The translations under genes and the position numbers were made by a program. Shown piece by piece: positions 10,141 to 35,775 of a DNA stretch of 61,213 nucleotides (position 1 is its first letter; each line of letters starts with the position of its first letter). Origin of the DNA: an uncultured beta proteobacterium (lineage in GTDB: Bacteria > Pseudomonadota > Gammaproteobacteria > Burkholderiales > Rhodocyclaceae); NCBI GenBank assembly GCA_903908065.1, contig CAIVQO010000076.1, positions 1-61,213 of the forward strand, read 5' to 3'. The notes under the pieces were generated by a model. It was not told where the DNA came from, searched no databases, and saw only the letters and a program-made list of their open reading frames with translations.

Positions 10141-10391
10141 CGATTGGCCGAATCCTTAAAGCCTTGTGGCGGAAACGTGATGAAGCATGAGGTGGCTCAG
10201 CATGCAAACCTACGTAGATACCGCAGTTTGTAGCGTAATTTCCGGATGCACAAGCTCGGGTCGCTTTGAGAAGATAGCCGAAAGAGTTTGAATCGTTTTA
10301 TTTATTTGAGGCGCATTGTAGCTGCGTTTGGGCTTGCCGTGGGAGTCGGAATTGTCAAAAACTTCAACGGCCCCGGCGCTCTCCGAGACCC
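10141..10391. other. Divergent intergenic region, FixJ-type regulator / cheR
   Basis: This 251-base region has no gene. It holds the CTACGTAG block at 10210-10277 and an A/T-rich stretch around 10290-10310. cheR has only a weak ribosome site (CCGAGACCC). No sigma-54 or sigma-28 consensus was seen here. Confidence 0.7.
10210..10277 (+). promoter_or_regulatory. CTACGTAG promoter block, copy A (cheR)
   Basis: The palindrome CTACGTAG (10210-10217) is followed after three bases by CCGCAGTTTG, then GCGTAATTTCCGGAT, then TTTGAGAAGATA at 10266-10276. It aligns without gaps with two other copies in the window (23651-23584 on the minus strand and 35639-35706). It points at cheR, whose start is 182 bases from the block start. 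I infer an activator or operator site plus a core promoter with a -10 near 10271-10276. Confidence 0.75.
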
Positions 10392-11213
10392 ATGGCCGCC
10401 AACGAAAACGCTGAAATCAGCACTGCCGAGTTTGCCCAGTTCCAGCGCCTGATCTACAAGATCGCCGGAATCAGCTTGGCCGACTCGAAAAAGATCCTGC
10501 TCGCCGGTCGCCTCGGCAAGCGGGTGCGCCATTTCAACCTCAGCAGCTTCGGCGAATACTATCGAATGGTCTCCAGCGGCAGCGAGCCGGCCGAGCTGCA
10601 GACCATGGTGGACCTGCTGACCACCAACGAAACCTACTTCTTCAGGGAGGAAGCCCATTTCGACTTCCTCAAGGACGTGATACTCGCGGATCACCCGGCG
10701 CATATCCCCTTCAATATCTGGAGCGCCGCCTCGTCGACCGGCGAGGAAATTTATACGCTGAGCTTCGTCCTCGCCGATACCCTGGGCCTGGATGCTCCTT
10801 GGCAGGTAACCGGTTCGGACATTTCGACCGCCGTCCTGGCCACAGCCGAACGCGGACTGTATTGGCTGGACCGCACCCGCGGCCTGCCCCAGTCCTACCT
10901 CAAGCGCTACTGCCTGAAGGGCGTGCGCAGCCACGAAGGCAGCTTCATGATCGCGCCCGAGATCAAGCGCCATACCCGCTTCCTCCAGGTCAACCTGAAC
11001 CAGACGTTGCCGAAGCTTGGCAAATTCGACGTCATCTTCCTGCGCAACGTGATGATTTATTTCGATGCCGACACCAAGCGACAGGTGGTGGCACGGCTGG
11101 TCGAACAACTGGTTCCCGGCGGCTACCTGATCGTCGGCCATTCCGAAAGCCTCAACGGCATCAACGATCGGGTCAAGCCGGTCAAGCCCACCATCTATCG
11201 ACTTCCCCACTGA
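10392..11213 (+). CDS. cheR: Chemotaxis protein methyltransferase CheR
   Basis: 273 residues. An N-terminal helical CheR domain (about 1-75) precedes a Rossmann-type methyltransferase domain with the SAM motif [16 protein letters not shown] and LRNVMIYFD. CheR methylates glutamates of receptors using S-adenosylmethionine, in adaptation. Family length is normal and there is no TPR tail. It is the first gene of the che operon; cheB starts two bases after its stop. Upstream is the CTACGTAG promoter block. Confidence 0.95.
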
Positions 11214-11215
11214 TC

Positions 11216-12292
11216 ATGGCAGCCAAAATCAAGGTTCTGATCGTCGACGATTCCGCGGTCGTGCGCCAGGTAAACCGGGAAACCATCGAGCGCGAGGCCG
11301 ACATGGAAGTGATCGGCGTCGCCTCCGACCCGATCTATGCCCTGGAAAAAATGAAACTCCAGTGGCCGGACGTGCTGGTGATCGATATCGAAATGCCGCG
11401 CATGGATGGCCTGACCTTCCTCAAGAAGATCATGAGCGAGCATCCGACGCCAACCATCGTTTGCTCCTCACTGGCTGAAAAGGGGGCGGCAGCGACCATG
11501 GAGGCCCTGGCGGCCGGCGCGCTGGCCATCATCACCAAGCCCAAGATGGGGGTGAAGCAGTTCCTCCAGGATGCCGGCGACGACCTTGCCAGCGCGGTTC
11601 GCGCTGCGGCACGGGCCAACATGAGCCACATGGCGCGACGTCCGACCGGCTTCCAGCCGCCGCCGAAACTGACCGCCGATGCGATGCTGGCGGCGCAAGC
11701 CGCCAGTTCCCGCGCCATGGCCGAAACCACTGATCGCGTGGTGGCGATCGGCACCTCGACCGGCGGCACCCAGGCCCTGGAAGCGGTGCTCACCCGCCTG
11801 CCCAACGTCGGCAGCGGCATCGTCATCGTCCAGCACATGCCGGAAAAATTTACCGCCATGTTCGCCGACCGCCTCAACAGCCTGTGCAAACTGGAGGTTC
11901 GCGAGGCGAAAAATGGCGATCGCGTGATCTCCGGGCGAGCCCTGATCGCGCCCGGCGGCCGTCACATGATGCTGCGGCGCAGTGGCGCCCAGTACTACGT
12001 CGAGGTCGCCGATGGGCCGCTGGTCAATCGCCACAAACCTTCGGTGGACGTCCTGTTTCGTTCCGTGGCCCAGATTGCCGGGCGCAATGCGCTGGGGGTG
12101 ATCATGACCGGGATGGGCGACGACGGCGCGCGCGGCCTCAAGGAAATGCACGACGCGGGCGCGCGGACCGTTGCCGAGGATGAATCGACCTGCGTGGTGT
12201 TCGGCATGCCCAAGGAAGCGATCAAGCTGGGCGCGGTTGATCGGGTGGTGCCGCTCGATTCGATTCCTGCCGAGATCATTTCCTACGGTTGA
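11216..12292 (+). CDS. cheB: Protein-glutamate methylesterase CheB
   Basis: 358 residues from ATG 11216. The REC domain (about 1-125) has [11 protein letters not shown] and [11 protein letters not shown]. After a linker, the methylesterase domain (about 165-355) carries the catalytic motifs [10 protein letters not shown] (Ser), [10 protein letters not shown] (His) and [11 protein letters not shown] (Asp). It demethylates and deamidates receptors when phosphorylated by CheA. An open frame extends upstream inside cheR but is a shadow. Confidence 0.95.
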
Positions 12293-12310
12293 CCTGCGCG
12301 GAGACCCATC

Positions 12311-12904
12311 ATGCCCGGCCCGTTGATCCACGATCCCAAGGAACTTGAGCGTCGCTCGCGCAACATCAATCCCGGCGGCTGGGCGGTGGAAACCGAGCGC
12401 CCGATCACCACCCTGCTGGGATCCTGCGTTGCGGTATGCCTTTACGATCCCAAGCTGCGAATTGCGGGCATGAACCATTTCCTCCTGCCCAGTCGCTCGA
12501 AAACCGCCAGCGACGACACCGACGTGATCATGGCCGGCGACTACTCGATGGAAGTCCTGCTCAACACCATGCTGAACAAGGGTGCGGCCAAACAACGCAT
12601 CGTCGCCAAGGCCTTCGGTGGCGGAACAATCGTCACCTCGATCCTGATGGCGATCGGCCAACGCAACGCCGAGTTTGCCAAGGAATGGCTGGATCGGGAG
12701 GGTATTCCCCTCGCCGCGCAGGACTTCGGCGGCGCCTGGTCGCGCAAGGTGCTGTTCACCCCGGATACCGGCGATGCCTACTGCCGCAGGCTGCCGATCA
12801 GCCAGCCCGACGTGCAGCAGGTCGTCAGTGCGGAAAGAGACTACGAGCAGTCGCTGATCAAGCCCAGCCGGCCGAGCGCCGAAAAGAAGATCGAACTGTT
12901 TTGA
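12311..12904 (+). CDS. cheD: Chemoreceptor glutamine deamidase CheD
   Basis: 197 residues. The catalytic cysteine lies in TTLLGSCVAVCLYDP, followed by the conserved GMNHFLLP. GGGTIV and the family's C-terminal half are also present. CheD deamidates receptor glutamines and can bind CheC/CheX-type phosphatases; here CheZ is present instead. The ATG at 12311 has GCGGAGA upstream. It is placed between cheB and an HDOD gene in the che operon. Confidence 0.93.
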   Translation: MPGPLIHDPKELERRSRNINPGGWAVETERPITTLLGSCVAVCLYDPKLRIAGMNHFLLPSRSKTASDDTDVIMAGDYSMEVLLNTMLNKGAAKQRIVAKAFGGGTIVTSILMAIGQRNAEFAKEWLDREGIPLAAQDFGGAWSRKVLFTPDTGDAYCRRLPISQPDVQQVVSAERDYEQSLIKPSRPSAEKKIELF

Positions 12905-12915
12905 GGCCGACCACC

Positions 12916-13812
12916 ATGAACACGAGCGCATTCTCCCCGCCTTCCACTCCCGGTCCGGCCCAGGCCATGGACGTCACGGCCATCCTGGCCAGTGTCACCG
13001 CGGCAGCGGAAAGCGGAAACCTGGTGTTCCCCACCACGGCCGAACTTGCGCTGAAGGTGCAGCGACTCATCGACGATCCCGATTGTTCGATCGACAGCCT
13101 CGCGAAGCTGGTGCAGGCCGATCCCGTGCTCGCCGCACGCGTGGTGGCGGTGGCGAATTCAGTGATCTACAACCGCTCCGGACGTGGCGTGGCGGATGTC
13201 CGCAGTGCCGTCTCGCGCCTCGGCCTCAACACGCTGCGCGTGCTTGCGGCGTCGGTCGTGGTGCGGCAAATGGAGGGCATGGCCGGAACGCCTGCCCACC
13301 GCAAGCTGGCAATCGCATTGTGGGAACACACTGCCCACGTCGCCGCCCTGGCGCAGGTCATCGCGCGCCGGGTAACCCACGTCAATCCGGATACCGCATT
13401 CTTCGCCGGGATCATCCACGAAATCGGCGGCTTCTACCTGATCGCCCGCGCCGGCGCCTATCCGGGACTTCTGGAGTCTGCCCATGGCAGCCTGCTGGCC
13501 TGGGACGAAGGCGGCGCCGCCGATGTCGGTCGTGCCGTGCTGAAGCACCTTGGCGCGCCCGCCGCAGTGATCGAGGCGATCGAAGGGATGTGGCAAGGCT
13601 ACCTGGCGATGCCGCCCCAGTCCCTGGCCGACACCCTGTTGCTGGCCGACCTGCTGGCACCCGTCGAATCGCCGCTTTCCCAACTGGCCGGCAACGGCCG
13701 CGAAGGCACCCAGGTGGACATCGACGTGGCAATCGACGACCAGACCCTGACCAGCATCCTCGACGAATCGAAAACCGAAGTGGAATCCCTGATCGCCGCC
13801 TTGCGCGCCTGA
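12916..13812 (+). CDS. HDOD domain protein
   Basis: 298 residues from ATG 12916. An HDOD domain (about 30-235) begins FPTTAELALKVQRLIDDP, with ADPVLAARVVAVANSV and IIHEIGGFYLIARAG. HDOD domains are HD-superfamily folds that usually lack catalysis and act in signal transduction. The HEIG at the expected HD position shows a degenerate metal site. It lies inside the che operon, 11 bases after cheD and 27 before the double cheV, so a role in chemotaxis signalling is likely but unproven. Confidence 0.85.
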   Translation: MNTSAFSPPSTPGPAQAMDVTAILASVTAAAESGNLVFPTTAELALKVQRLIDDPDCSIDSLAKLVQADPVLAARVVAVANSVIYNRSGRGVADVRSAVSRLGLNTLRVLAASVVVRQMEGMAGTPAHRKLAIALWEHTAHVAALAQVIARRVTHVNPDTAFFAGIIHEIGGFYLIARAGAYPGLLESAHGSLLAWDEGGAADVGRAVLKHLGAPAAVIEAIEGMWQGYLAMPPQSLADTLLLADLLAPVESPLSQLAGNGREGTQVDIDVAIDDQTLTSILDESKTEVESLIAALRA

Positions 13813-13839
13813 GACCGCTTCCAGCCTGGAAAACCGACC

Positions 13840-15786
13840 ATGTCCGAACTGCTCAAGAACGTCGATGCCCGTACCCGACTCGCGGGCACCAACAAGCTGG
13901 AAATCCTGCTTTTCTCGCTGGGCACGGATTCCCGCACCGGTCGGCGCGAAACCTTCGGCATCAACGTATTCAAGGTGCGCGAGGTGATGAATACGCCGCC
14001 GATCACCGCCGCTCCGGAAATGAATCCGGCCGTAATGGGCATGGTCAGCCTGCGTGGCGCACTGGTGCCGGTAGTCGACCTGGGCGACTATGTCGGCATC
14101 AGCAGCGACTCGCAACGCAAGGTGATGATCGTCACCGAGTACAACCATCACACGCAGGGCTTCCTGGTCGAGGCCGTGGATACCATCCTGCGCGTCGATT
14201 GGGCCCAGATGCGCGTGCCCCCGGAAATGCTCAGCAACAACCTCGGCGGCCTGGTGACGGCGGTCACCGAACTCGAAGACGGCAGGCTAGTGATGCTGCT
14301 CGACGTCGAACGCATCCTGGCGGAAACAGTCAAGCCTGACGACAGCATGTTGTTCTCCAATATCGCCCCGCTCGACCGGCAGGACTTGATGGTGCTGTAT
14401 GCCGACGATTCCTCGGTGGCGCGCAACCAGATCCAGCGGACCCTGGATGCGCTGGGCGTTCGCTCTACCGGCGCCGTCAATGGCCGTGCCGCCTGGGATG
14501 AACTGCGTCGCATCGCCGACCACGCCGAACGCTGCGGCCGGCCCGTTCGCGACTTCCTGCAGGTCGTTCTTACCGATGTCGAAATGCCGGAAATGGATGG
14601 TTACCTGCTCACCCGTTCGATCAAGGGCGACCCGCGCTTCAACGGCATTCCGGTGCTGATGCATTCGTCGCTGTCGTCGACCTCCAACCAGCAACTGGGG
14701 CAGTCGGTCGGTGTCGATGAATACATTCCGAAATTCGAACCGCAGCGCTTGTCCGAGGCCCTGGTCAGGCTGCTGGTCGGCAAGACCGCGGAGCCCGGCG
14801 CCAATCAGGTGGCCGGTGGTCAGGCCCGTGGCACGCAGCTCGCCATGTCGCCGCCCTCGCTGCTGGACAGCGTTGACGCCCGCACCCGGCTCGCCGGTTC
14901 CAACCGGATGGAAATCCTGTTGTTCTCCCTCGGGACCCATGAGTTGTTCGGCATCAATGTGTTCAAGGTAAGGGAAGTCAGCGAAACTCCCGACATCACC
15001 CGGACGCCCAACATGCCCGATGGCGTCGAGGGCCTGATCAGCCTGCGCGGCTCGGTGATTCCGGTGATCTCGCTGTCAACGGTGATGAAGCTCGCCGACG
15101 CGCCCCCCGGATTGGGCAGCGCCATGATGGTGGCCGAATACAGCAAGCGCAACCTGGGTTTCCTGGTGCATGAAGTCGATCGAATCATTCGCGTCGATTG
15201 GGAAAAGGTGCGCGCCCCGGACAGCCTCGCCGGCGGCGCCGACACCTACATCTCGGCAGTGACCGAACTGGCCGACGGCCGGCTGGTGTCCATCCTCGAC
15301 GTTGAGCAGATCCTGGCCAATACCTTCGGCGAGTCGGAGGTTGGCCAGATCGAGCAGATGGCAGGTGGCGAAACCATGAATGTCTTCTTCGTCGACGACT
15401 CGGTGGTGGCGCGCAAGAAGATTGCCGAAGTGCTGGACAAGCTCGCCGTCAATCACAAGTTTGCGCAGAACGGCCTCGAGGCCTGGACCCGCCTCTCTGG
15501 CTTGGCGTCCCGCGCCCAGCAAACCGGGAAGTCGCTGCACACGGAAATCGACCTGATCCTGGTCGATGCCGAAATGCCCGAAATGGACGGCTATGTGCTG
15601 ACCCGCAACATCAAATCCGACAAGCGTTTCGATGGCATCCCGGTGGTGATGCATTCATCGCTTTCGTCCCAGGCGAACCATGCCATGGGGCGTAGCGTGG
15701 GCGTCGATGCCTACGTGGCGAAATTCGATGCCGAAGCGCTGTCGCAGACTTTGCGTGCACAATTGACGCGTCGCGCAAACTCATAG
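13840..15786 (+). CDS. cheV: Tandem CheV fusion (CheW-REC-CheW-REC)
   Basis: 648 residues, twice the usual CheV length of about 310. Module 1 starts VDARTRLAGTNKLEILLFSL (residue 8) and has a REC domain with VLTDVEMPEMDG. Module 2 repeats VDARTRLAGSNRMEILLFSL from residue 345 and has LILVDAEMPEMDG. Each module is a CheW-like coupling domain followed by REC, both with acceptor Asp. The junction (about 320-338) is a short Gly/Ala/Gln-rich linker with no stop codon. CheV links receptors to CheA and is thought to act as a phosphate sink or adaptation element. An internal ATG near 14844 has no clear ribosome site. Confidence 0.92.
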   Translation: MSELLKNVDARTRLAGTNKLEILLFSLGTDSRTGRRETFGINVFKVREVMNTPPITAAPEMNPAVMGMVSLRGALVPVVDLGDYVGISSDSQRKVMIVTEYNHHTQGFLVEAVDTILRVDWAQMRVPPEMLSNNLGGLVTAVTELEDGRLVMLLDVERILAETVKPDDSMLFSNIAPLDRQDLMVLYADDSSVARNQIQRTLDALGVRSTGAVNGRAAWDELRRIADHAERCGRPVRDFLQVVLTDVEMPEMDGYLLTRSIKGDPRFNGIPVLMHSSLSSTSNQQLGQSVGVDEYIPKFEPQRLSEALVRLLVGKTAEPGANQVAGGQARGTQLAMSPPSLLDSVDARTRLAGSNRMEILLFSLGTHELFGINVFKVREVSETPDITRTPNMPDGVEGLISLRGSVIPVISLSTVMKLADAPPGLGSAMMVAEYSKRNLGFLVHEVDRIIRVDWEKVRAPDSLAGGADTYISAVTELADGRLVSILDVEQILANTFGESEVGQIEQMAGGETMNVFFVDDSVVARKKIAEVLDKLAVNHKFAQNGLEAWTRLSGLASRAQQTGKSLHTEIDLILVDAEMPEMDGYVLTRNIKSDKRFDGIPVVMHSSLSSQANHAMGRSVGVDAYVAKFDAEALSQTLRAQLTRRANS

Positions 15787-15801
15787 AACAAGGAGAACCC
15801 C

Positions 15802-16206: not shown

Positions 16207-16270
16207 TCGGCCGCAGCCATCCGCCTCGACACGCCCAACCGCCGACGACCAACGATCAGAAAGCGCAACG

Positions 16271-17173: not shown

Positions 17174-17197
17174 CCGGAAGCTGCCAAGGAGCGCGCC

Positions 17198-19102: not shown

Positions 19103-19103
19103 G

Positions 19104-20465
19104 GTGCCCGGCACGAACGATCCTGCCCGCGACGCCAGCCTCTGGTTCGCCCGGGTCGCCGGGAAGGCCACGTCGCCCATGCCTTTCGAGGCCGACCTGC
19201 CGGCGCGGCCAATGGCCAGCCTGGCCGCATTCGTCGCCCGTGTCCTGGCCGAAGAGCGCGAGCTGCTGCTGCTGGTACCCGGCGACGATGTCTTGCCGGA
19301 GCTTTCCGCCGCCGTCGATCTCGCGCTGCGCCCCCTCTGCCTGATCCTGCCGCAAGCCGAATTCGCCACCGGAATCGCGCTGCGCGCTACCCTGCTGCTG
19401 CTCAAAAGTCGGCTCTGGCGGGACGGCGATGACAGCCGCGACGTGGCCTGGACAAGGCAGCGTTGCCGCCTGGAAGCGAATGCCGAGCTCTGGCAACGGG
19501 CGCAGGCCTGGTTGTCCTCGAACGAACCGGACGATCCGCTGCCGTCGGAGTTCGCCGACCTGTTTTCGATCGTGGTGCTGCCCGTTGCCGGCTGGCGAAC
19601 CCTGCCCTTGCGCAAAAGCGCCATCGTCCTGCTGTATTGCTGCGATGCCCCGGCTGAGCTCGACGCGATGGCCTTGCGCATGGTGCGCGTGGGAACCCAA
19701 CCTGCCATGGCACCGCCGCAGTTGCCAGCCTGCAGCGACGAGACGACCCGCCTGCTCCTGGAACGAACCCGCCTGAGCCAGGACATCGCCGACCTCGAAC
19801 TGGAATTGGCCAACGTGCAGGGCGAACTGGCCGATTTCATGCGCGACTACTATCGGCGGATTGCCCCCCTGATGGCGGAACAGGATCGTTTGCAGGCCCG
19901 TATTGCATCCCTGAAGGCGGCTGCCGATCCGGGCAACCCGACACTGGACGCATCGGCGGCGCAACAGCGGCAGCAGGCCGAGGAGTCAGCGGCCGATGCC
20001 GGGCGCTTCAGTGCTGCCCTGCCTGACGATGCCCCAGCTTTCGATCCCGATCGCAAAACACGACAGGAATTTCGTCGCCTGGCGCAGCAGATCCATCCGG
20101 ATCGCGCCATCGACGAGGACGACCGTGCCTGGCGCACCCAGCTGATGAGCGAAGCCAACCGGGCCTATCGCATCGGCGATCGCGCCGGCTTGCGCGAGAT
20201 CGCGGCACTGTGGGAGGAACAGGCGGGAAGCCGAACCGGCGCCGCAATCCCGGCACGCTCCCAACTCGAGGCGCAACTGTCGCGGCTGCGGGCCCGGCTG
20301 GCGCGCATCGAAGGCGAACTGCATCGCTTGTTCGGCTCGCAGCTGTACGCCCTTTACATCGCCGCTCGCCAGGCGCGACGCCAGGGGCGCGATCTGCTGG
20401 CCGAGATGATGGAGCAGCTCGACGCTGCGATTGTTGAACTGCGCCGCGTGGCCTACCCCGACTAG
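19104..20465 (+). CDS. J-domain (DnaJ-like) protein of unknown function
   Basis: 453 residues from GTG 19104, one base after the cheA stop; ATG 19179 is an alternative start. The N-terminal 200 residues have no family I recognise. A coiled coil is likely at about 210-275. At about 318-370 lies a J-domain-like segment, FRRLAQQIHPDRA, with the invariant HPD at 331-333. A second coiled coil ends the protein. J domains stimulate DnaK-type Hsp70 ATPase. No Cys-rich zinc domain and no G/F region, so it is a specialised J protein. Position suggests co-expression with cheA. Confidence 0.7.
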   Translation: MPGTNDPARDASLWFARVAGKATSPMPFEADLPARPMASLAAFVARVLAEERELLLLVPGDDVLPELSAAVDLALRPLCLILPQAEFATGIALRATLLLLKSRLWRDGDDSRDVAWTRQRCRLEANAELWQRAQAWLSSNEPDDPLPSEFADLFSIVVLPVAGWRTLPLRKSAIVLLYCCDAPAELDAMALRMVRVGTQPAMAPPQLPACSDETTRLLLERTRLSQDIADLELELANVQGELADFMRDYYRRIAPLMAEQDRLQARIASLKAAADPGNPTLDASAAQQRQQAEESAADAGRFSAALPDDAPAFDPDRKTRQEFRRLAQQIHPDRAIDEDDRAWRTQLMSEANRAYRIGDRAGLREIAALWEEQAGSRTGAAIPARSQLEAQLSRLRARLARIEGELHRLFGSQLYALYIAARQARRQGRDLLAEMMEQLDAAIVELRRVAYPD

Positions 20466-22342
20466 GAACCCGGGCTCGCGGTAATCCTCTGCAGCGCGGC
20501 AAGGCAAGCGGGATGCCCGAGGGCAACACCCGCACGCAACCAGCGCAGGGCGCGGCGCCAGCGCCCCCCGGCCGCGGAGGCGTGCAGGTGATGCATTCCC
20601 AGTTCAAGGCAGGCGTCGCCGTCACCCTGCTCGGCGGCACGCCGCAGCCAGCGCAGCCCAGTCACGACGTCGGGTTCCGCACCATGCCCGTGCAGCAGGC
20701 AGAAGCCGCAGCTATACATGGCATGAGTATCTTGATGCTGGATCGCAGCGCGCAGATACCACTGCAAGGCCTCTTCACGATCCTGCGCTACGCCGCGCCC
20801 GAAATACAGCAGCTCGCCCAGGATCAACTGGGCATCGACCATGCCGCCGGCCCGGCGATACCACGCAAGTGCCGCTCGCGGGTCCGGTGCGGTGCCTGTT
20901 CCATGACGCAGGCATTCGCCCAGCAGGTAGGCGGCACGGACATGCCCGTGTTCGGCGGCTTGCCGCAGGCAGGAAACCGCCTGCGCAAGCATTGCGTCGC
21001 CGGCGTCCGTCGCCGAGTTCAGCAAGGTCAGTCCGCGTTCGTACCAAAAGCGCTGCAATTCACCGCCTGCCTGCGTCCAGCCGGCCTGGGCAGCAAGTTC
21101 CAGTTCCACGATGCCGCGCGCGACATCCGTCGCGCCGCCGATTCCAAGCAGCAGGCAGCGGCCGAATTCGGCGCGTCCATGGGCATCGCCGGCCTGGGCC
21201 GCGAGCCGGTAGGCGCGTCGTGCCGCGCTCGCGTCGACCTCACCGCCCTCGCCCTGTTCCAGGCATTCGCCCAGCCAGGTCCAGGCCTGGGCCTCACCTT
21301 TATCCGCCGCGGCCCGATACCAGCGCAAGGCTTCGGCGCCGTCGTGTGCGATGCCATCGCCGCCGCGATGGGCATGGCCGATCATCAGGTGGGCGCGCAC
21401 ATGGCCTGCCCGCGCCGCCTGCTTCCAGTGAAGTAGCGCACCCTGCGGATCGCGGGCAAGGCCGACACCGCGGGAAAGGCAAACGCCAAGCTCGAACTCG
21501 GCTTCACGGCTGCCGCCGGCGGCCGCGCGGCGATACCACTCCATGGCCTGATCCGGATCGCGCGGTAGACCGTTGCCGAACATCGCGCATTGGCCGAGCA
21601 GGAACATTGCGCCGGGTATGCCTTGGCCGGCCGCCTTATTCAAGTAACCAAGCGCCTCCCGTTTCTGCCGGGCATCCCTGGCCGCCACGTGCAAGCACAA
21701 TCCGAGGCAGTAGTCTGCCGCCGTGTTGCCAGCGGCGGCGGCCCGCCGCCACAGCTCAATTGCCGCTTCACGGTCTTCGACCACGCCACGGCCGTGGAAA
21801 TGGCAGCGTGCCAGCAGCTCCATCGCATCGGCATGTCCGGCCTCGGCGGCTCGGCGCAGCAGGGGAACTGCCGCCACGGGATCACTGGGCATGCCGATCC
21901 CAAAATACAGCATGCGCCCAAGCCCAACGCAGGCGAGGGAGGAATCGCGTGCTGCGGCGATGGCGAAGAGGCGCGCCGCTTCGCCATCGTCCCGCGGCAT
22001 CCCGATGCCCTGCTGCAACAGCCAGCCGAGAACGGCAATCCCTTCGGTGCAATCGGCTTCCGCACTTTTAAGCGCCCACGCGATGGCCTGGTCCGGATTT
22101 GGCGGTGCCGCCGTGGCATGGCGCCACGCCAGTTCAGCCTGGGCCGCCGGATTGCCGCCACGCGCCATGCGGGCCAGTTCGGTCGGCGACAACCCGCCCC
22201 AGAACTCCTTGACGCCGAGCATGGCGATGCCCTGCACCGCCCCTCGAACGACCAGCGGCGTCTCAAGCTCGCCGCGGAATATTCCCAGCAGCGCCGCCGG
22301 CGCCAGCGGCACCAACTCACCTACCGGATTCATGGCATCCAC
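20462..22342 (-). CDS. Sel1-repeat (SLR) protein
   Basis: 626 residues made almost wholly of Sel1-like repeats of about 36 residues (for example AARLFAIAAARDSSLACVGL and LLRRAAEAGHADAMELLARC), roughly a dozen copies. There is no signal peptide or TM segment, so it is probably cytoplasmic. The start is GTG 22342 or ATG 22333. SLR proteins are scaffolds for protein interactions. It lies 24 bases downstream of the CZB receptor in the same direction and its 3' end overlaps the convergent J-domain gene by four bases. Function unknown. Confidence 0.85.
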   Translation of the reverse strand: MDAMNPVGELVPLAPAALLGIFRGELETPLVVRGAVQGIAMLGVKEFWGGLSPTELARMARGGNPAAQAELAWRHATAAPPNPDQAIAWALKSAEADCTEGIAVLGWLLQQGIGMPRDDGEAARLFAIAAARDSSLACVGLGRMLYFGIGMPSDPVAAVPLLRRAAEAGHADAMELLARCHFHGRGVVEDREAAIELWRRAAAAGNTAADYCLGLCLHVAARDARQKREALGYLNKAAGQGIPGAMFLLGQCAMFGNGLPRDPDQAMEWYRRAAAGGSREAEFELGVCLSRGVGLARDPQGALLHWKQAARAGHVRAHLMIGHAHRGGDGIAHDGAEALRWYRAAADKGEAQAWTWLGECLEQGEGGEVDASAARRAYRLAAQAGDAHGRAEFGRCLLLGIGGATDVARGIVELELAAQAGWTQAGGELQRFWYERGLTLLNSATDAGDAMLAQAVSCLRQAAEHGHVRAAYLLGECLRHGTGTAPDPRAALAWYRRAGGMVDAQLILGELLYFGRGVAQDREEALQWYLRAAIQHQDTHAMYSCGFCLLHGHGAEPDVVTGLRWLRRAAEQGDGDACLELGMHHLHASAAGGRWRRALRWLRAGVALGHPACLAALQRITASPGS

Positions 22343-22366: not shown

Positions 22367-23488
22367 CTAGCGGTTGAGCAGGCTGCGGTCGCCCTCGACC
22401 ACTGCGGCGAGGCGATCCAGCGCATCGACCAGCTTGCTGCTCGCATCTTCCATGCGCGCCAGCGCCTCGATTCCGGACGAGCGGCTACCGTTACGCAGCG
22501 CCGTCAGCGCATCGGCGGCGGCGCGATGCATCGCGGCATGCGGGATTTCGGTTTCCTGGAATCCGGGCAGATGGGCATAGTGTTCGCGCCCCTCGCCACT
22601 GGCATGCCATTGCCCCAGGCGACAGCGTCGATGATCCAGCAGGTCGGCGCCACCGGTCTCCCCCAGTCCGAGGTAGGCGCGATAGACATCGAACTTGAAC
22701 TGGACATGTTCGACCTTGGCCATTTCAATGAAACTGCCAAGCGTTGACGCGGCGATCGCGCCCTCCATCCGCGTTGCCAGACCAAGCAGGCGCTGCATGT
22801 TTTCCGATGCGGCGCCGCCTTCAGCGCTGGCGCGTTGGGTTTCACGGGCCAGCACGGCCATGCTCTCCGTGGCGCCGCCGGTATCCTCGCCGATCTGGCC
22901 GACCAGGGCCGATATTTCCGAGGTGGCGCTACCGGTACGTTCGGCCAGCTTGCGTACCTCATCGGCAACCACGGCAAAGCCACGACCCTGCTCACCCGCG
23001 CGCGCCGCCTCGATGGCGGCGTTCAAGGCCAGCAGATTGGTCTGGTCGGCAATTTCCTTGATCAGATTGACGATGCTGACGATGCGAGTGGCGCGTTCAC
23101 CGAGGGCTGCCACTTTTTCGGCGGCGGTGGCGGAGTTCGCCGACAGCTGCGACAAGGTTCCGGAAATGCGGTCGATGGCATCGCGATTGGCCTCGGCAAC
23201 GCCAAAGGTTTCGCTGGCGCTGCCGCGCTCGGCGTCCATCATCATGGCCAGGCGGTCCAGGCTCTGTTGCGACAGTCCGATCGACAGGCCGAAGCTGTCC
23301 AGCAGGGCCGCCAATGCCCGATATTGTTCAAGCTGCGCTTCCAGCTCGCCTGCCCGCATGCCGGCATCCGCCAGGCGGGCTTCCAGTGAATTAATGGTGT
23401 CGCGAGCCTCGGTTTGCTCGGATTGGCAAAGCAGCAACTGCTGCTGCAATTTTTCGAGTTCGTCGCGCTTGGCAGAGCCGAAAAACAT
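22367..23488 (-). CDS. Soluble chemoreceptor with C-terminal CZB zinc-binding domain
   Basis: 373 residues with no TM segment. An N-terminal coiled coil (about 5-60) precedes an MCP signalling domain with [19 protein letters not shown] and [12 protein letters not shown]. The C-terminus (about 255-365) is a CZB domain, with [16 protein letters not shown], the [11 protein letters not shown] motif and later PHAAMH supplying the His/Cys zinc ligands. Known CZB proteins (TlpD, DgcZ) sense zinc or hypochlorite. The ribosome site GAGGAGCAAACG precedes the ATG. It heads an operon with the Sel1 gene and has copy B of the CTACGTAG block upstream. Confidence 0.9.
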
Positions 23489-23682
23489 CGTTTGCTCCTC
23501 GATCAGAATTTAGCTGGCTGGCCTGCCCTGGCGCGGCTTCCGACGGCCTCGCGACGGGCGTGGCGAGTTCATGTTGACTGCGAAAATCTTCGCAGAATGC
23601 CGGGCGGATGTTTATCCGTGAATCACGCGGCAAACTGCGGTACCTACGTAGCCCGCTGCCATCCCGCGGCATGCCGCCCCGA
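23489..23682. other. Intergenic region, diguanylate cyclase / CZB receptor
   Basis: 194 bases between two minus-strand genes. It holds the CTACGTAG block on the minus strand and the receptor's leader of about 90 bases. No terminator hairpin with a T-tract was seen after the cyclase gene. Confidence 0.65.
23584..23651 (-). promoter_or_regulatory. CTACGTAG promoter block, copy B (CZB receptor operon)
   Basis: Read on the minus strand from 23651: CTACGTAG, GTA, CCGCAGTTTG, CC, GCGTGATTCACGGAT, then TCTGCGAAGATT near 23596-23585. Ungapped alignment with copies A and C covers all 68 positions. It points at the receptor start codon 163 bases away. Confidence 0.75.
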
Positions 23683-27572: not shown

Positions 27573-27610
27573 GGGCGTTTCGGGCTTTCCTTGGTGCGCA
27601 AGCGGACGCC

Positions 27611-28060: not shown

Positions 28061-28161
28061 GGGTTGGAGAGGTGGAATGCGGTTCGGACTGGCGGCGCGA
28101 TGCGATGCATGGGCGCGAATGTTACTGCAATCGTTCGCCAAATCCCTTACGGTGACCCGGG

Positions 28162-29691: not shown

Positions 29692-29785
29692 TGGAATTGA
29701 GGCCATGGGTGGTAGCGATAACGGCATGCCTTAGCCATCTTGAGCAGATGACAGGAACCGCCAGCAACAGCTTCGGCGACGAACG

Positions 29786-30115
29786 CTAGACCTGGATGTT
29801 CATGATGTCGTGATAGGCCGACACCAGGCGGTTGCGCACCTGAACCATCTGCTGGAAGGACAGGCTGGCCTTTTGCAGGTTGATCATCACGTCCTGCAAA
29901 TTGACATCGCTCTGGCCGCTGGAAAAATCCTCGGCCATCTTTTGCGCATCAACCTGCGCGGCACTGACCTGGTCTATGGTGTTCTTCAGAACCTCCGCGA
30001 AGTCCGGCCCGCCCGCAGGCGCCTGCCCCGCCGCCGGCGACTTGGCGCCGGTCAGCGCTGCCGCCGACTTGAGCTCGGCCAGCATCTGGTCTATCTGTCG
30101 TGTATCGATGGCCAT
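29786..30115 (-). CDS. fliE: Flagellar hook-basal body protein FliE
   Basis: 109 residues. The C-terminal half (DVMINLQKASLSFQQMVQVRNRLVSAYHDIMNIQV region) is the FliE signature. FliE joins the MS ring to the proximal rod and is an early export substrate. It has its own sigma-54 promoter in the 66-base gap after fleR. The next gene downstream is the unrelated carbonic anhydrase, so fliE here is separated from fliF, unlike the common fliEF order. Confidence 0.94.
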   Translation of the reverse strand: MAIDTRQIDQMLAELKSAAALTGAKSPAAGQAPAGGPDFAEVLKNTIDQVSAAQVDAQKMAEDFSSGQSDVNLQDVMINLQKASLSFQQMVQVRNRLVSAYHDIMNIQV

Positions 30116-30151
30116 GACGACCCCTCGTTGTTGTGCGCTCGCGCCACCATC

Positions 30152-30167
30152 AGCAATCGCCGTGCCA
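30152..30167 (-). promoter_or_regulatory. Sigma-54 promoter of fliE
   Basis: Minus-strand TGGCACGGCGATTGCT matches the consensus TGGCACR-N4-TTGCW at every specified position. It lies in the fleR-fliE gap, with the predicted start near 30141, about 26 bases before the fliE ATG. Confidence 0.88.
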
Positions 30168-30181
30168 ATACGCTAAGGATG

Positions 30182-31573
30182 TCAGTCGTCATCGCCGGGA
30201 ATGCTGAACCCCTCGGCGCGATACTGGTTGATCTTGTAGCGCAGCGTGCGTTCCGAGATGCCAAGGATGGCGACGGCCTTCTTGCGCGAACCGCCGACGC
30301 TGGCCAGCACGTCCTGGATGTGCTGGCGCTCAAGGGTCTTCATGTCGGGTGCCGCCCCCCCAGAGGCCACAGCCGGCGCGGAAGTCGGCGCTGGCGATAC
30401 GGCGCCGGACGGCGGTGGAAAGGGTGTGCCGCTCGCTGCCGCCATCACTGCCACGTCGGGCAGAGGCAAGGCATCGGCCTCGATCACATCGCCGGCTTCG
30501 AGGATCAGGGCCCGCTGGACCACGTTTTCGAGTTCGCGCACATTGCCCGGCCAGGTATGGGCGCGCAACCGAGCCTCGGCGCCGGCGGCAAATCTTGCCG
30601 CCCGGTTTGCCGCCGCGGCAAGATGCGCCAGTGTCTTGCGCGCGAGGGGCACGATGTCCTCCGGCCGCTCGCGCAGGGAGGAAATTTCAAGCGGAAACAC
30701 GTTCAGGCGGTAGTAAAGGTCCTCCCGGAAATGCCCGGCCTTGACCTCGGCAGCCATGTCGCGGTTTGAGGTGGCCAGGATGCGGATATCGAGCGGCACG
30801 GGCTTCTTGCCGCCAACCCGTTCCACTTCGCGCTCCTGCAATACCCGCAGCAGCTTGGCCTGAAGACCGAGCGGCATTTCGGAGATTTCGTCGAGCAGCA
30901 AGGTGCCGCCATTGGCCTGCTCGAACTTTCCCGCCTGGGCGACCTGGGCGCCGGTAAACGCCCCTTTTTCGTGCCCGAACAGGGTGGCTTCCAGCAGGTT
31001 GTCGGGGATTGCCGCGCAGTTGATGGCGACGAAGGGCCCCTTGGCGCGGGCCGACTGCTCGTGGATGTAACGGGCAAAGACTTCCTTGCCGACGCCGGAT
31101 TCGCCGGTCAGCAGCACGGTCGCGTCGGTACGTGCCACGCGCGAGGCCATCAGCAATGTGGCGCGTGTCTTGGCATCGACCGCCACCACGCCTGCCGCAG
31201 GCGCCGGAGGGGTGGCGTAGCGCTCGATCTGCTGGATCAGGGCCTTTGGCTCGAAGGGTTTGAGCATGAAATCGCAGGCCCCGCCGCGCATCGCAGCCAC
31301 CGCCTTGTCCACATCGCCGAATGCGGTCATCAACAACACCGGCAAAGCGGGATGCCGATTGCGGATTTCGCCCAGCAAGGTCAGGCCGTCCATCGGGCTC
31401 ATGCGCAGGTCGGACACCACCATGTTGTAGGACTTGCGCCGCAAGGCTTCGAGTGCGGCGGGCCCGCCGTCGGCGACATCGGTATCGTGCCCCGCTGTTT
31501 CCAGCGTGACCTGCAGCGCGTCGCGCAGGGCTTCGTCGTCCTCGACGACCAGGATGCTCAGTTTTTCTGACAT
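30182..31573 (-). CDS. fleR: Sigma-54-dependent flagellar response regulator FleR/FlrC
   Basis: 463 residues. REC (about 5-120) has [12 protein letters not shown] and [12 protein letters not shown]. The AAA+ domain has Walker [10 protein letters not shown], the sigma-54 contact loop EKGAFTGAQ and Walker [14 protein letters not shown] Fis-type HTH ends the protein ([20 protein letters not shown]). In Pseudomonas and Vibrio this regulator activates basal-body and hook genes. It is encoded after fleS with a 16-base overlap. The many sigma-54 promoters in this window are its likely targets. Confidence 0.93.
30586..30600. promoter_or_regulatory. CGGCA-N5-TGCCG palindrome inside fleR
   Basis: CGGCAA-ATC-TTGCCG, the same 15-bp form found in the fliF, flgK and flgB/flgA intergenic regions. 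It is coding sequence and lies about 420 bases upstream of the fliE promoter. It may be a distant enhancer or chance. Confidence 0.35.
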
Positions 31574-32763
31574 GGGAGGCTGAAGGTAAATATGGCGCCG
31601 GCGCCGGGGCTGGATTGCACGTCGATGCTGCCGCCATGGGCACGCACGATGCCGTGGGCGATCGCCAGGCCCAGGCCGGTGCCCTCACTGCGGGTGGTAA
31701 AGAACGGCTGGAACAGGCGCGACACCGTCCCCTTGTCCATGCCCGGCCCGTTGTCGCCGACGGCGATGAATACGGTAGTTTCGTCGCGCCGGGCGGAAAG
31801 TTCGATGCGCCCCTGTCCATCGGCATCGACGACCTGCAAGGCGTTCTCCAGCAGGCTGGTCAACGCGGAAATCAGGGACTTGCGGTTGCCCACCAGGCGC
31901 GCATCAGCGGTTTCATCGATCACCACCAGCCGCACCCCGGTCTTCGCGAGCAATGGTTCGAAGTTCTGCGCCAGCTCGGCCAGCAAATCCCTTACCGCAA
32001 ACCTGTCCTGCCCCAGCGCCTCGCCCCGAGCGAACAGCAGCATGTCCTGGATCAGGCGTTCGATGTGCTTGAGCCGCGCCACGGTTTTCTGGGCAATCGA
32101 GCTGCGACTCGCGGCAGGCAGATCGACGTTTTCGAGGTTTCCCGCGTACAGCAGCGCTGCCGCCAGCGGCGTGCGCAGCTGATGGGCCAACTGCGCCGCC
32201 ATCTCCCCCATGGCAGCCAGACGTTGGGTCCGCTCCGCCTGGTCCTTGAGCTGCTGGGCTTCGGTAACGTCGTGCAACAGCACGATGCGGCCGCCGGAAG
32301 CGCCTAGCGGAGTCACGTCGATTGCCAGGTGGCGCCGGTCGAGGAGAAACTCGCCGGGGGTTTCGCCGGGCAGCAGTTTGTCGCCATAGATGCTCATCCA
32401 GCTGTCGCCAACCTGCACGTCGCCAAGGAATTCGACCGCCGCAGGGTTGATCTGCACCACACGTCCGGCATCGTCGAGCACCACGACGCCGGCCGGCAGC
32501 GCATCCAGCAGGGTGCTCAGACGCTCGGTCAAGGCGGCCTTCTCGAGGTACTGCTGGCGCAGCGCGCCATTGGCGGCTTCCAATTCACCGGTCAGGCGGG
32601 CCATCTGGCCCTGCAATTCGCTGTAAGCCCCGCTCAATTCCTCCGAGGCACGGCTGAACATGCGGAAGGCCTCGGCCAGCCGCAGGGCCTCTTCAGGCGC
32701 GACGACGCCGGGTGCGGCCACGGCGCCCACCCCCGTGTCGGCTTTGCTGACGGGAACTTGCAT
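31558..32763 (-). CDS. fleS: Flagellar sensor histidine kinase FleS/FlrB
   Basis: 401 residues from ATG 32763, without TM segments, so cytoplasmic like FleS and FlrB. An N-terminal coiled coil (about 30-80) leads to a PAS domain (about 85-185, LLDALPAGVVVLDDAGRVV), HisKA with AAQLAHQLRTPLAAALL and an HATPase domain with DNGPGMD and [12 protein letters not shown]. It phosphorylates FleR in response to basal-body assembly in relatives. It overlaps fleR and diverges from fliF. Confidence 0.92.
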   Translation of the reverse strand: MQVPVSKADTGVGAVAAPGVVAPEEALRLAEAFRMFSRASEELSGAYSELQGQMARLTGELEAANGALRQQYLEKAALTERLSTLLDALPAGVVVLDDAGRVVQINPAAVEFLGDVQVGDSWMSIYGDKLLPGETPGEFLLDRRHLAIDVTPLGASGGRIVLLHDVTEAQQLKDQAERTQRLAAMGEMAAQLAHQLRTPLAAALLYAGNLENVDLPAASRSSIAQKTVARLKHIERLIQDMLLFARGEALGQDRFAVRDLLAELAQNFEPLLAKTGVRLVVIDETADARLVGNRKSLISALTSLLENALQVVDADGQGRIELSARRDETTVFIAVGDNGPGMDKGTVSRLFQPFFTTRSEGTGLGLAIAHGIVRAHGGSIDVQSSPGAGAIFTFSLPCQKN

Positions 32764-32821
32764 GGGCCCGGATGATGGCAGAATCGGTCCCCCGCCACAA
32801 GAAAGCCGCCAGCCGATATGC

Positions 32822-32836
32822 CGGCAAAAATTGCCG
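32822..32836. promoter_or_regulatory. CGGCAA-N3-TTGCCG palindrome upstream of fliF
   Basis: CGGCAA-AAA-TTGCCG, centred about 15 bases upstream of the -24 element of the fliF promoter. It is shared with the flgK and flgB/flgA regions. Inferred FleR binding site. Confidence 0.6.
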
Positions 32837-32844
32837 CTTCTTTG

Positions 32845-32860
32845 TGGAACCGGTCTTGCT
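32845..32860 (+). promoter_or_regulatory. Sigma-54 promoter of fliF
   Basis: TGGAACCGGTCTTGCT keeps the GG and GC dinucleotides at the right spacing and differs from consensus at one of the -24 bases (A for C) and at the R position. The fliF ATG is 73 bases downstream. Confidence 0.7.
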
Positions 32861-32932
32861 ACGCCAGTCCATACTTCGCACGCGGGTGGTATCGACCCGA
32901 AACGACCGGGCAGACAGGAAAACTCCGAAAAC

Positions 32933-34588
32933 ATGGCAGACACCGCAGCGGCCGCAACGTCCTTTCCGCTTTCGCCGGAGGCCTTCGGTCGCCTGGGCAT
33001 CACCCAGAAACTGATGACGCTCGTCATCCTCGCCATGCTGGCGGCGGTGCTGATCGCCGGCGTGATGTGGGCGCGCGAACCCACCTACGCCGTGCTGTTT
33101 TCGATCCAGGACGAAAAGGACGGCGGCAATGTCGTCACCGCGCTGCAGCAGCAGAACGTGCCATACCGCTTCAGCCCGGGCGGCCATACCATCCTGGTGC
33201 CGCAGACCATGGTTCATGACACGCGCCTGCGTCTCGCCGCCCAGGGCCTGCCCAAGGGCGGGCTGGCCGGGTTCGAACTGCTTGAAAACCAGAAGATGGG
33301 CATCAGCCAGTTTGCCGAGCAGGTCAACTACCAGCGCGGCCTCGAAGGCGAACTGGCCCGCTCGATCCAGTCCCTGGCCGTGGTCAAGGGCGCCCGCGTG
33401 CATCTGGCGATTCCCAAGCAGTCGGCCTTCCTGCGCGAAGACCAGAAACCCTCGGCCTCGGTACTGGTCACGCTGGCGCCCGGCCGCAGCCTGGACCAGG
33501 CGCAGGTCGTGGGTATCGTCAATCTGGTGGCCTTCAGCGTTCCCCAGCTGAATCCAAAGAACGTCAGCGTGGTCGACCAGGAAGGCAAGCTGATTTCGCA
33601 ACAGATCGACCCGCTGCGCGACGCCGGCCTCGACGCGGCGCAGATCCGCTATGTGCGCGAAATCGAAGCAGCCTATGTGCAGCGCATCGAATCCATCCTG
33701 GCGCCGATTGTCGGCGCGAGCAACGTGCGCGCCCAGGTGGCTGCCGACATCGATTTTTCGCAGACCGACCAGGTCGCCGAAACCTATCGCCCCAATCCGG
33801 CACCGGCCACAGCGATACGCAGCCAGCTGACTTCGGAAACCGGCAGCGGCACGCCGCCGGCCGCAGGCATTCCCGGCGCGTTGAGCAACCAGCCCCCGGC
33901 ACCGGCCACGGCGCCTTTGGTACAACCGGCACAGACAGGGGCCGCGGCGGCCTCGGCAGCCGCCCAGAACTTCAGCCGCAATTCGACGGTGAATTACGAG
34001 ATCGACAAGACCATACGCCATACCAAAGGTACGCCGGGTGCGGTGCGCCGACTGTCGGTTGCCGTGGTGGTCAATTACCGCAAGGAAGCCCCGAAGGATC
34101 CGAAAGACGCCCCCAAAGACGCGAAGGATGCCGCCAAGGCCCAGGCCATTCCATTGTCGGAAAACGATCTCAAGCAGATCAACGAACTGGCGCGTGAAGC
34201 GATGGGCTTCAACAAAGAGCGCGGCGACTCCCTCAATGTCGCCAATGCCGCTTTCACGCCGGTGGAAAAGGAAGTGGTGCCCGACGCCCCGATCTGGCAA
34301 AGCCCGACCCTGATTTCGCTGCTGCTGGAAGGGGGTCGCTATCTGTTGATCGCGGTCGTCGCCTTCTGGCTCTGGTCAAAGGTGGTTCGACCGGTGCTGA
34401 TCAGCTTTGCCGAAGCAGCCGCTCGCGCTGCGGCCGAGCAGGCAGCGGCGGCAGTCGAGGAGAGGCCGGTTTCCGCTCATCAGCATAGTTACGAAAACAA
34501 ACTGGCGGCCGCGCGAGAGATGGCGAAATCCGACCCCAAGGCCGTCGCCGCCATGATCAAGGACTGGGTGGGCCGCGGTGAAGCCTGA
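32933..34588 (+). CDS. fliF: Flagellar MS-ring protein FliF
   Basis: 551 residues from ATG 32933. TM1 is at about 27-46 (LMTLVILAMLAAVLIAGVMW) and TM2 near 460-480. The YscJ/FliF secretin-like domains carry GLPKGGLAGFELLENQKMGI and the RGLEGELARSIQSL motif. The C-terminal cytosolic tail binds FliG. Length is typical. It starts the fliFG unit, driven by a sigma-54 promoter; fliG overlaps its end by 11 bases. Confidence 0.95.
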   Translation: MADTAAAATSFPLSPEAFGRLGITQKLMTLVILAMLAAVLIAGVMWAREPTYAVLFSIQDEKDGGNVVTALQQQNVPYRFSPGGHTILVPQTMVHDTRLRLAAQGLPKGGLAGFELLENQKMGISQFAEQVNYQRGLEGELARSIQSLAVVKGARVHLAIPKQSAFLREDQKPSASVLVTLAPGRSLDQAQVVGIVNLVAFSVPQLNPKNVSVVDQEGKLISQQIDPLRDAGLDAAQIRYVREIEAAYVQRIESILAPIVGASNVRAQVAADIDFSQTDQVAETYRPNPAPATAIRSQLTSETGSGTPPAAGIPGALSNQPPAPATAPLVQPAQTGAAAASAAAQNFSRNSTVNYEIDKTIRHTKGTPGAVRRLSVAVVVNYRKEAPKDPKDAPKDAKDAAKAQAIPLSENDLKQINELAREAMGFNKERGDSLNVANAAFTPVEKEVVPDAPIWQSPTLISLLLEGGRYLLIAVVAFWLWSKVVRPVLISFAEAAARAAAEQAAAAVEERPVSAHQHSYENKLAAAREMAKSDPKAVAAMIKDWVGRGEA

Positions 34589-35579
34589 AGAAGGCATAGA
34601 AAAAAGCGCCATCCTGCTGCTCTCCCTGGGTCAGGACGAGGCAGCCGAAGTCCTCAAAAACCTCGGCCCCAAGGAAGTCCAGAAGCTGGGCCATGCCATG
34701 GCCGCCCTCAAGCAGGTGCCGCGCGAACGCGTGGAATCGGTGATCGACGAGTTTGCCGAGCACGCCTCCAAGGGCGCACCGGTCGCGGTGGACAACGAGG
34801 CGATCAAGACCATGCTGACCAAGGCGCTCGGCGACGATCGCGCCGCGGGCCTGATCAATCGCATCATGGCGGGCAACGACACGGCGGGCATCGAAGGTCT
34901 GAAATGGATGGATGCCAACAGCGTCGCCGACCTGATCCGCAACGAACACCCGCAGATCATCGCCACCATCCTGGTGCATCTGGAATTCGACCACGCCGGC
35001 GACATCCTCAAGAATTTCACCGACCGCCTGCGCAACGACGTCCTGCTGCGCATCGCCACCCTCGACGGCGTGCAGCCGGTCGCCTTGCGCGAACTGAACG
35101 AGGCGCTGACCCGCATCCTTGCCAACTCCGCCGCGAACGTCAAGAAGACCGCCATGGGAGGCATTCGTCACGCCGCCGAAATCCTCAACTTTGTCGGCCA
35201 GTCGAACGAGACGGCGATCATCGACAACGTGCGCGAATACGATCCGGACCTGGCGCAAAAGATCCTCGACGAAATGTTCGTCTTCGAGAACCTGCTCGAC
35301 GTCGATGATCGCGGCATCCAGTTGCTGTTGCGCGAAATCCAGTCCGACGCGCTGATCATCGCGCTCAAGGGGGCATCGCCCGAACTGCGCGAAAAAGTAT
35401 TCAAGAACATGTCCCAGCGCGCCGCCGAAATGCTGCGCGAGGATCTGGAATCGAAGGGCCCGGTGCGCCTGTCCGAGGTCGAGAACGAGCAGAAGGAAAT
35501 CCTCAAGGTCGCCCGCCGCCTTGCCGAGGAAGGTCAGATCCAGCTGGGCGGCGGTGGCGGCGACGACGCTTTCGTTTGA
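34578..35579 (+). CDS. fliG: Flagellar motor switch protein FliG
   Basis: 333 residues from GTG 34578. It has the FliG N, middle (EHPQIIATILVHL) and C domains, with the torque helix region VFENLLDVDDRGIQLLLREI containing the charged residues that face the stator, and the C-terminal SEVENEQKEIL. Part of the rotor C ring. Overlap with fliF indicates translational coupling. A 196-base gap with the CTACGTAG block separates it from fliH. Confidence 0.96.
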   Translation: MKPEEGIEKSAILLLSLGQDEAAEVLKNLGPKEVQKLGHAMAALKQVPRERVESVIDEFAEHASKGAPVAVDNEAIKTMLTKALGDDRAAGLINRIMAGNDTAGIEGLKWMDANSVADLIRNEHPQIIATILVHLEFDHAGDILKNFTDRLRNDVLLRIATLDGVQPVALRELNEALTRILANSAANVKKTAMGGIRHAAEILNFVGQSNETAIIDNVREYDPDLAQKILDEMFVFENLLDVDDRGIQLLLREIQSDALIIALKGASPELREKVFKNMSQRAAEMLREDLESKGPVRLSEVENEQKEILKVARRLAEEGQIQLGGGGGDDAFV

Positions 35580-35775
35580 TGCCTGCCGTGGCGCCGGGCG
35601 GATACCGAACCAAGGACGCCGGATTCGAATTCGGCTACCTACGTAGTCTCCGCAGTTTGCCGCGTCATTCACGGATCAACAAAATCTGCCTGCTCTGAGA
35701 GCATACTTCTTCCGGCAGGCCTACTTCCCCGTGCGTTCCGGGGGCAAGCTGACGATTCATCCTGAAACACGAGCC
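35580..35775. other. Intergenic region fliG / fliH
   Basis: 196 bases that split fliFG from fliHIJ, which are often one operon. It holds copy C of the CTACGTAG block. No sigma-54 sequence was seen. If GTG 35731 is the fliH start instead of ATG 35776, the leader is 45 bases shorter. Confidence 0.7.
35639..35706 (+). promoter_or_regulatory. CTACGTAG promoter block, copy C (fliHIJ)
   Basis: CTACGTAG (35639-35646), TCT, CCGCAGTTTG, CC, GCGTCATTCACGGAT, and CTCTGAGAGCATA near 35693-35705. Copies B and C share CCGCAGTTTGCCGCGT and ATTCACGGAT exactly. The block points at fliH, 137 bases from the block start to the ATG. Confidence 0.75.

Follow-up and report, generated by a model that had tools for sequence, protein, structure and literature searches.

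A conserved promoter block before chemotaxis and flagellar genes in Rhodocyclaceae, and its probable control by a FixJ-type response regulator

A 68-bp block stands before cheR, a chemoreceptor gene and fliH in contig CAIVQO010000076.1 of an uncultured beta proteobacterium of the Rhodocyclaceae; the whole 61,213-nucleotide stretch that was analysed is called the window below. The block recurs across related genomes. It is probably an activator-dependent σ70 promoter controlled by a FixJ/NarL-type response regulator, whose gene diverges from the first copy at a distance of 70 bp (Table 1).

The conserved block and its promoter-like anatomy

The initial annotation had described three ungapped 68-bp sites, here copies A, B and C, and their coordinates, strands and shared words proved exact. 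Copies B and C are each identical to copy A at 48 of 68 positions, whereas the next-best ungapped match of copy A in the window reaches 33/68 (mean 16.8, s.d. 3.5). The word CTACGTAG occurs three times in the window, in each case within one of these copies, against 0.03 occurrences expected from dinucleotide shuffles. Counted from the first base of the block, the distance to the start codon is 182 bases for copy A, 163 for B and 137 for C, within the 137 to 182 bases first given, and the genes that follow are, as annotated, cheR (A), a CZB chemoreceptor and then a Sel1 protein (B), and fliH and then fliI (C). The conserved block is a real feature.

A motif scan of the window genome and its relatives, as the initial annotation had proposed, revealed the block well beyond the window. 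The window genome holds seven sites matching a 38-bp pattern with at most 3 mismatches (reversed control, 0) and 12 sites at E 0.01 or better with a sequence profile built from 77 sites, the weakest two being on contigs C67 (9e-6) and C48 (1e-3). In a species-level collection, 75 stretches matched an exact 21-base seed; their records are named Sulfuritalea, Rhodocyclales, uncultured beta proteobacterium, Sterolibacterium and Candidatus Accumulibacter necessarius. With up to 7 mismatches allowed, and with sites identical over the first 60 bases left out, the resulting 82 loci, seven of them from the window genome, yielded 77 distinct sites, which align without gaps. Family-wide, the block was found in 19 of 395 genomes and 4 of 68 genera (at most 3 mismatches), with no control matches. 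A profile search of 101 family genomes found blocks in 3, scoring just 50 of the roughly 500–1800 candidates per genome, and the pattern searches were relied on instead. Among the literature matches listed, judged by titles and the starts of abstracts, none dealt with a CTACGTAG promoter block, and none of the matches listed for the regulon concerned this regulon as far as their available text goes.

Column statistics were taken from the 75 of the 77 sites that have full flanks. Columns 1–8 and 12–21 were fixed by the seed, columns 22–38 were lightly filtered, and columns 39–70 were not used in choosing sites. Columns 38–43 are TAAACA-like (T38 in 75 sites, A39 in 54, A40 in 59, A41 in 69, C42 in 72 and A43 in 73). 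Columns 58–66 read T-G-a-G-A-n-n-A-T, with T58, G59, G61, A62, A65 and T66 each kept in 71–75 sites and the lower-case a in 56; the spacer, columns 44–60, is 17 bp long and the spacing is fixed. Columns 38–66 read as a σ70 promoter with a −35 element, a 17-bp spacer and an extended −10 element TGaGAnnAT. In these sites TAAACA-17-GAnnAT, with its TG extension, falls within the 16–18 bp that separate −35 and −10 elements of σ70 promoters. Measured against the σ70 consensus, the −35 element matches at 4 of 6 bases and the −10 element at 3 of 6. Transcription is predicted to start near block position 72–74, that is, 6–8 bp past position 66. The element first noted at positions 55–67 is indeed conserved, though it reads as the −10 part of this promoter. 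The flanks are unconserved on both sides of the block, as had been noted at the outset for the leaders: columns −19 to 0 and 67 to 120 all stay at or below 0.36 bits.

The 37-bp box directly upstream of the −35 element reads as an activator site with two FixJ-like arms about 21 bp apart. Columns 2–15 and 24–37 form an imperfect inverted repeat (T.CGT..AT..CGC, 8 bp, GCG..AT..ACG.A), and CGTA stands as a direct repeat at 4–7 and 25–28, 21 bp apart. The shared word CTACGTAG of the initial annotation, although present in all three window copies, is merely part of this box. AGTTTG at 16–21, part of the collection seed, is conserved in the window genus (g1) and variable in the genera g52 and g6. 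The g52 arms show greater symmetry, reading approximately CGTAGTTTCCGCA and TGCGnAAACTACG. None of 2000 column permutations reached the dyad symmetry of the 11 g52 sites (one per g52 genome bearing a regulator ortholog, genome G324 left out), a test weaker than it looks in that 5 of its 19 pairs join pattern-fixed columns. The remaining g52 arm pairs (columns 2–16 with 23–37) match in 36–100% of the 11 sites, and pair 3/36 in 27%.

We compared the arms with published sites of the FixJ family. The motifs obtained for FixJ by systematic evolution of ligands by exponential enrichment, as quoted in PMC4999443, are GTAMGTAG and GTAGTTTCCC; the block has CTACGTAG in g1, and many g52 arms have GTAGTTTCCGCA or GTAGTTCCCGCA, a likeness judged by eye with no statistic attached. 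According to the available text of the same source, FixJ footprints at S. meliloti fixK span −69 to −44 and −57 to −31, and that of PMC2442086 places the main StyR site at about −40 with a second site upstream. With arms at about −63 and −42 from the predicted start, the geometry of the block fits these FixJ footprints and the StyR −40 site.

A downstream frame could be chosen for 66 of the 77 sites, several of the other 11 lying near contig ends, and its start was a median of 157 bases past the first base of the block. Pfam domains over these frames were MCP signalling (17), receiver (11), CheR (9), FliH (8), HisKA (7), CZB (6), GGDEF (5) and σ70 region 2 (3, FliA by eye), in a count where the choice of frame was mechanical and sometimes wrong and orthologs are counted repeatedly. 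Clustering of the frames and scans of nine representatives gave cheR, cheY, fliA, receptors, PAS kinases, EAL/GGDEF and HDOD proteins, and one GerE-only regulator. Co-control of the che operon, the export ATPase operon and a receptor, as first suggested, is supported, with the regulon now refined to one that is chemosensory first and flagellar second. The GerE-only regulator is a LuxR-type protein in locus L032 (4535-5266) in which no receiver was detected; a similar LuxR-type protein (by eye) lies behind a degenerate block near 24239 on contig C67 of the window genome (L216). This receiver-less protein may act as a regulator at a lower level of the same regulon.

Co-occurrence of the block with a FixJ-type regulator

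The regulator carries a receiver domain (PF00072, E 2.6e-22) and a LuxR-type (GerE) helix-turn-helix domain (PF00196, E 2.1e-16). Its acidic pocket, phospho-acceptor Asp and Lys are kept, since IDDD, VTDVRMPG and QKPF align with 1yio and with FixJ 5xso, so that the protein has the features of the NarL/FixJ family. These two structures are also its nearest PDB relatives (E 6e-44 and 5e-43, respectively); 1yio, listed in the PDB as a response regulatory protein, is presumably StyR. The regulator is not FixJ proper, scoring 189 bits against an NCBIfam FixJ equivalog cut-off of 255, and the hybrid kinase convergent with it is a PAS hybrid kinase and not of the FixL type (185 bits against 850 for FixL). 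Of the 33 regulator loci, 27 have a relative of this kinase next to the regulator (tblastn, 1e-20), the six without a match being stretches of at most ~3.6 kb. In G186 a 1314-aa frame lies further along from the regulator. The corresponding frame of G006 and of G105, in the position of the kinase, is the last gene of a run headed by a block; such a block-led run would make a positive loop.

Whether regulator and block occur together was determined in 76 genomes, 31 of the window genus and 45 of g6, g18 and g52, with blocks called where a shorter version of the box pattern matched with no more than 2 mismatches. Many of these genomes are split into many contigs. Regulator orthologs stand clear at 69–100% identity, against 45% or less for other relatives. 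An ortholog was found in 33 genomes (18 of g1, 3 of g6, 1 of g18 and 11 of g52), and all 33 have the block; 40 of the 43 ortholog-free genomes lack it and 3 have it (Fisher p 2e-18, phylogeny ignored). The reversed pattern matched once in each of 3 genomes. The single site of G324, one of the three exceptions, has 2 mismatches, is not followed by any promoter-like sequence and is probably a chance match. In g18 the ortholog is present in 1 of 21 genomes, G186, and blocks occur in G186 alone. On contig C28 of that genome (4000-23999, L327) the regulator and two blocks lie with remains of a che cluster in which the cheY-like frame is degenerate (by eye). In a tree built for 30 genomes from their flhDC DNA, the presence of the regulator requires 9 parsimony changes, with G396 and G397 scored as lacking it, and is a patchy trait.

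Simple adjacency is not the cause of this co-occurrence. Of the 18 ortholog genomes of g1, 17 carry a block on the opposite strand to the regulator, 67–94 bp away from where the regulator match begins; the contig of the 18th is cut there. In g52 no genome of 11 has a block within 300 bp of the regulator, yet all 11 have blocks. Among the 11 g52 loci viewed, with one site each, 5 have a cheY-like gene behind the block, and in G105 a block lies before a cheY operon 13.6 kb from the regulator, in a run read by eye as cheY-receptor-STAS-cheA-receptor-cheW-receiver-kinase that meets the regulator tail to tail. The co-occurrence (33/33 against 3/43) supports the proposal of one regulator for all copies, and together with the block beside the regulator gene in those 17 g1 genomes it favours the choice of the FixJ-type regulator as first candidate.

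In the explanation that we consider probable, the convergent hybrid kinase would phosphorylate the regulator, which would then bind block positions 1–37 as a double site whose two arms have their centres at about −63 and −42 relative to a start near position 73. Two regulator dimers may sit on one face of the DNA beside the weak −35 element, and the bound regulator would recruit σ70 RNA polymerase. The regulon switched on in this way would comprise che operons, cheY, fliA, fliH onward, chemoreceptors, kinases and cyclic di-GMP enzymes.

Several observations weigh against control by this regulator or against the promoter as read. Columns 39 and 40 of the −35 element have A in just 54/75 and 59/75 sites, and the dyad symmetry in g1 is marginal, being reached by 108 of 2000 column permutations. 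No clean covariation of the recognition helix with the box was seen by eye. G396 and G397 have 4 and 6 blocks, respectively, and no detected ortholog; both assemblies are fragmented, with ~590–600 contigs, and 83% and 70% complete. On the flhDC tree G397 is the sister of the ortholog-bearing G417, and G396 belongs to this small group too, next to G339, a genome lacking both ortholog and block. FlhC is weakly associated with the block, being found in 20 of 36 genomes with it against 12 of 40 without (Fisher p 0.036). As the main confounder, the regulator is co-inherited with the che cluster, so that another factor of the cluster could explain the co-occurrence.

Other candidates for control of the block

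The activator may then be such a factor, or the receiver-less LuxR-type protein encoded behind the block, with the FixJ-type regulator merely travelling along. The tendency of a close cheR relative, the kinase and the regulator to co-occur would be expected on this account, and so would a GerE-only protein behind the block in L032 with a similar one, by eye, behind the degenerate C67 block. That protein was found behind just two clustered sites besides C67, its genome-wide distribution not having been searched. The FixJ-type regulator is the sole DNA-binding protein among the nine genes scanned, which are part of the window che cluster, and published sites of its family resemble the arms. We consider this alternative unlikely.

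It is much less likely still that the block is an FlhDC box, with FlhD4C2 binding the inverted repeat and driving these promoters. The targets include fliA and chemotaxis genes, the window genome encodes FlhC with FlhD beside it, and the available text of PMC9962212 describes the E. coli box as an inverted repeat too, with a 10–12 bp spacer and an inner AAATAGCG that is partly like the block half-sites. The association of FlhC with the block given above points the same way. Compared by eye with the FlhDC box AAYGSSNNAAATAGCG-N10-12-CGCTATTTNNSSCRTT, however, the block is similar in the inner part and lacks the outer AAYG. Strong FlhC is missing from 16 of the 36 block genomes, including G105 (98% complete, 4 contigs) and G186 (100%), and the block is absent from 12 of the 32 genomes that have strong FlhC. 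G186 and all 11 g52 genomes with ortholog and block are without strong FlhC, G382 having one weak match. G069 has FlhC and FlhD 95% and 97% identical to those of the window genome, yet no block. The fliA upstream regions of 41 other genomes, of which 33 encode FlhC, gave no score near that of a block: the best was −48, against −3 to 103 for own-genome sites. Two of these 41 upstream regions are short (contig ends), and a few slightly exceed the best of their own 20 shuffles, none being block-like. FlhDC as sole activator, our first reading of the inverted repeat, was ruled out by this distribution and by G069.

Across the 101 family genomes FlhC was found in 76, and within the genus in 28 of 31. 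The flhDC pair itself is highly conserved, in 28 of 31 genus genomes, and is present also in G001, where FliA was undetected at the cut-off used. In G069 flhDC (L209, C1) is followed by motAB and che-like genes, an arrangement absent from the window genome (L208, C31) (by eye). Several genomes encode an extra, very divergent FlhC-like protein (E ~1e-7 to 1e-14), for example at G001:C55:28719 and G117:C42:167438.

An alternative sigma promoter such as that of FliA (σ28), with no separate activator, would account for flagellar and chemotaxis targets, and TAAA at 38–41 resembles part of the σ28 −35 element. By eye, though, no GCCGATAA-like −10 element of σ28 lies at the right spacing, the conserved 37-bp box extends upstream of the −35 element far beyond sigma contacts, and FliA-like proteins occur in 90 of 101 family genomes, whereas the block is in few (19/395); we regard this reading as very improbable. 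A mobile or repeated element scattered before genes, which would suit the many near-identical copies per genome, is least credible of all and is rejected because the flanks are unconserved; the arms and the −10 element are also kept while spacer columns 47–55 vary, and the 66 downstream frames are mostly signalling or motility genes.

Related systems and genes around the copies

The FixJ-type regulator proposed here shares its receiver and LuxR-type helix-turn-helix with FixJ of rhizobia, with chemotaxis and motility genes as targets in place of fixK or nifA. StyR of Pseudomonas fluorescens is like it through 1yio, the best PDB relative, and activates from a site at about −40 in the available text of PMC2442086; StyR controls styrene catabolism, though, and the rigid block seen here is common to many promoters. 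AcrR of Acidovorax citrulli, as described in the available text of PMC7060138, is a LuxR-family receiver and helix-turn-helix regulator needed for flagella; in its mutant flhDC expression itself falls, and no binding site is described for it there. The class II promoters of E. coli FlhDC are, in the available text of PMC9962212, activator-dependent, include fliA and carry an inverted-repeat box. Here the outer half of the box is different, and the distribution of the FlhDC genes does not follow that of the block.

A tentative and somewhat doubtful scenario is that in these Rhodocyclales a FixJ-type two-component system travelling with a chemosensory cluster captured class II genes (fliA, fliH onward) and replaced FlhDC there, a swap half done across sister genomes, with FlhDC still encoded. 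Sister genomes with and without the system make such rewiring of flagellar control testable. The proposed control would assign a response regulator to a defined site and regulon by comparative genomics alone, in a clade represented here chiefly by metagenome assemblies, and the block matrix is ready for regulon annotation.

Table 1. Positions of the block copies, their promoter elements and genes in the window
Feature	Position	Strand	Remark
Block copy A	10210..10277	+	Activator box 10210-10246 (predicted); upstream of cheR
Copy A promoter elements	−35 TGCACA 10247-10252; extended −10 TGAGAAGAT 10267-10275	+	Read from alignment
Block copy B	23584..23651	-	Activator box 23615-23651 (predicted); upstream of CZB chemoreceptor
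Copy B promoter elements	−35 TAAACA 23609-23614; −10 GAAGAT 23586-23591	-	Read from alignment
Block copy C	35639..35706	+	Activator box 35639-35675 (predicted); upstream of fliH
Copy C promoter elements	−35 TCAACA 35676-35681; −10 GAGCAT 35699-35704	+	Read from alignment
FixJ/NarL-type response regulator (receiver, LuxR-type helix-turn-helix)	9472..10140	-	Pfam, NCBIfam, PDB relatives; proposed activator
Hybrid sensor kinase (PAS repeats, HisKA, HATPase, receiver, Hpt)	4775..9442	+	Convergent with regulator; proposed partner
cheR	10392..11213	+	Behind copy A
Chemoreceptor with MCP signalling and CZB domains	22367..23488	-	Behind copy B
Sel1-repeat protein	20462..22342	-	Downstream of CZB receptor
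fliH (from ATG)	35776..36462	+	Behind copy C
fliI, export ATPase	36459..37847	+	Downstream of fliH; ATP-synt_ab and T3SS ATPase C-terminal domains
fliA (σ28)	60074..60835	-	NCBIfam; behind cheY-like gene cut at window end
cheY-like gene, cut by contig end	60865..61212	-	Named by eye; between fliA and proposed block on C58

The start of the hybrid kinase gene is provisional, as its open frame reaches upstream to 4637. At the other end of the window, the cut cheY-like gene may continue on contig C58 of the same genome, whose end reads flhA-flhF-flhG-block and then an apparent cheY start (genes named by eye). Joining C58 to the window contig would place a block before cheY-fliA, the order block, cheY, fliA seen in the related locus L022. 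Contigs C58 and C73 of the window genome (L085, L086) both end just past near-identical block-cheY starts (by eye), and the assembly probably breaks at repeated block-cheY units. An NtrC-type regulator is encoded at 30182-31573 of the window near an apparent fliE; its best NCBIfam match, FlbD, scores 422 bits where the cut-off is 750. The structural flagellar genes may be σ54-controlled, with the block serving chemotaxis, fliA and fliH.

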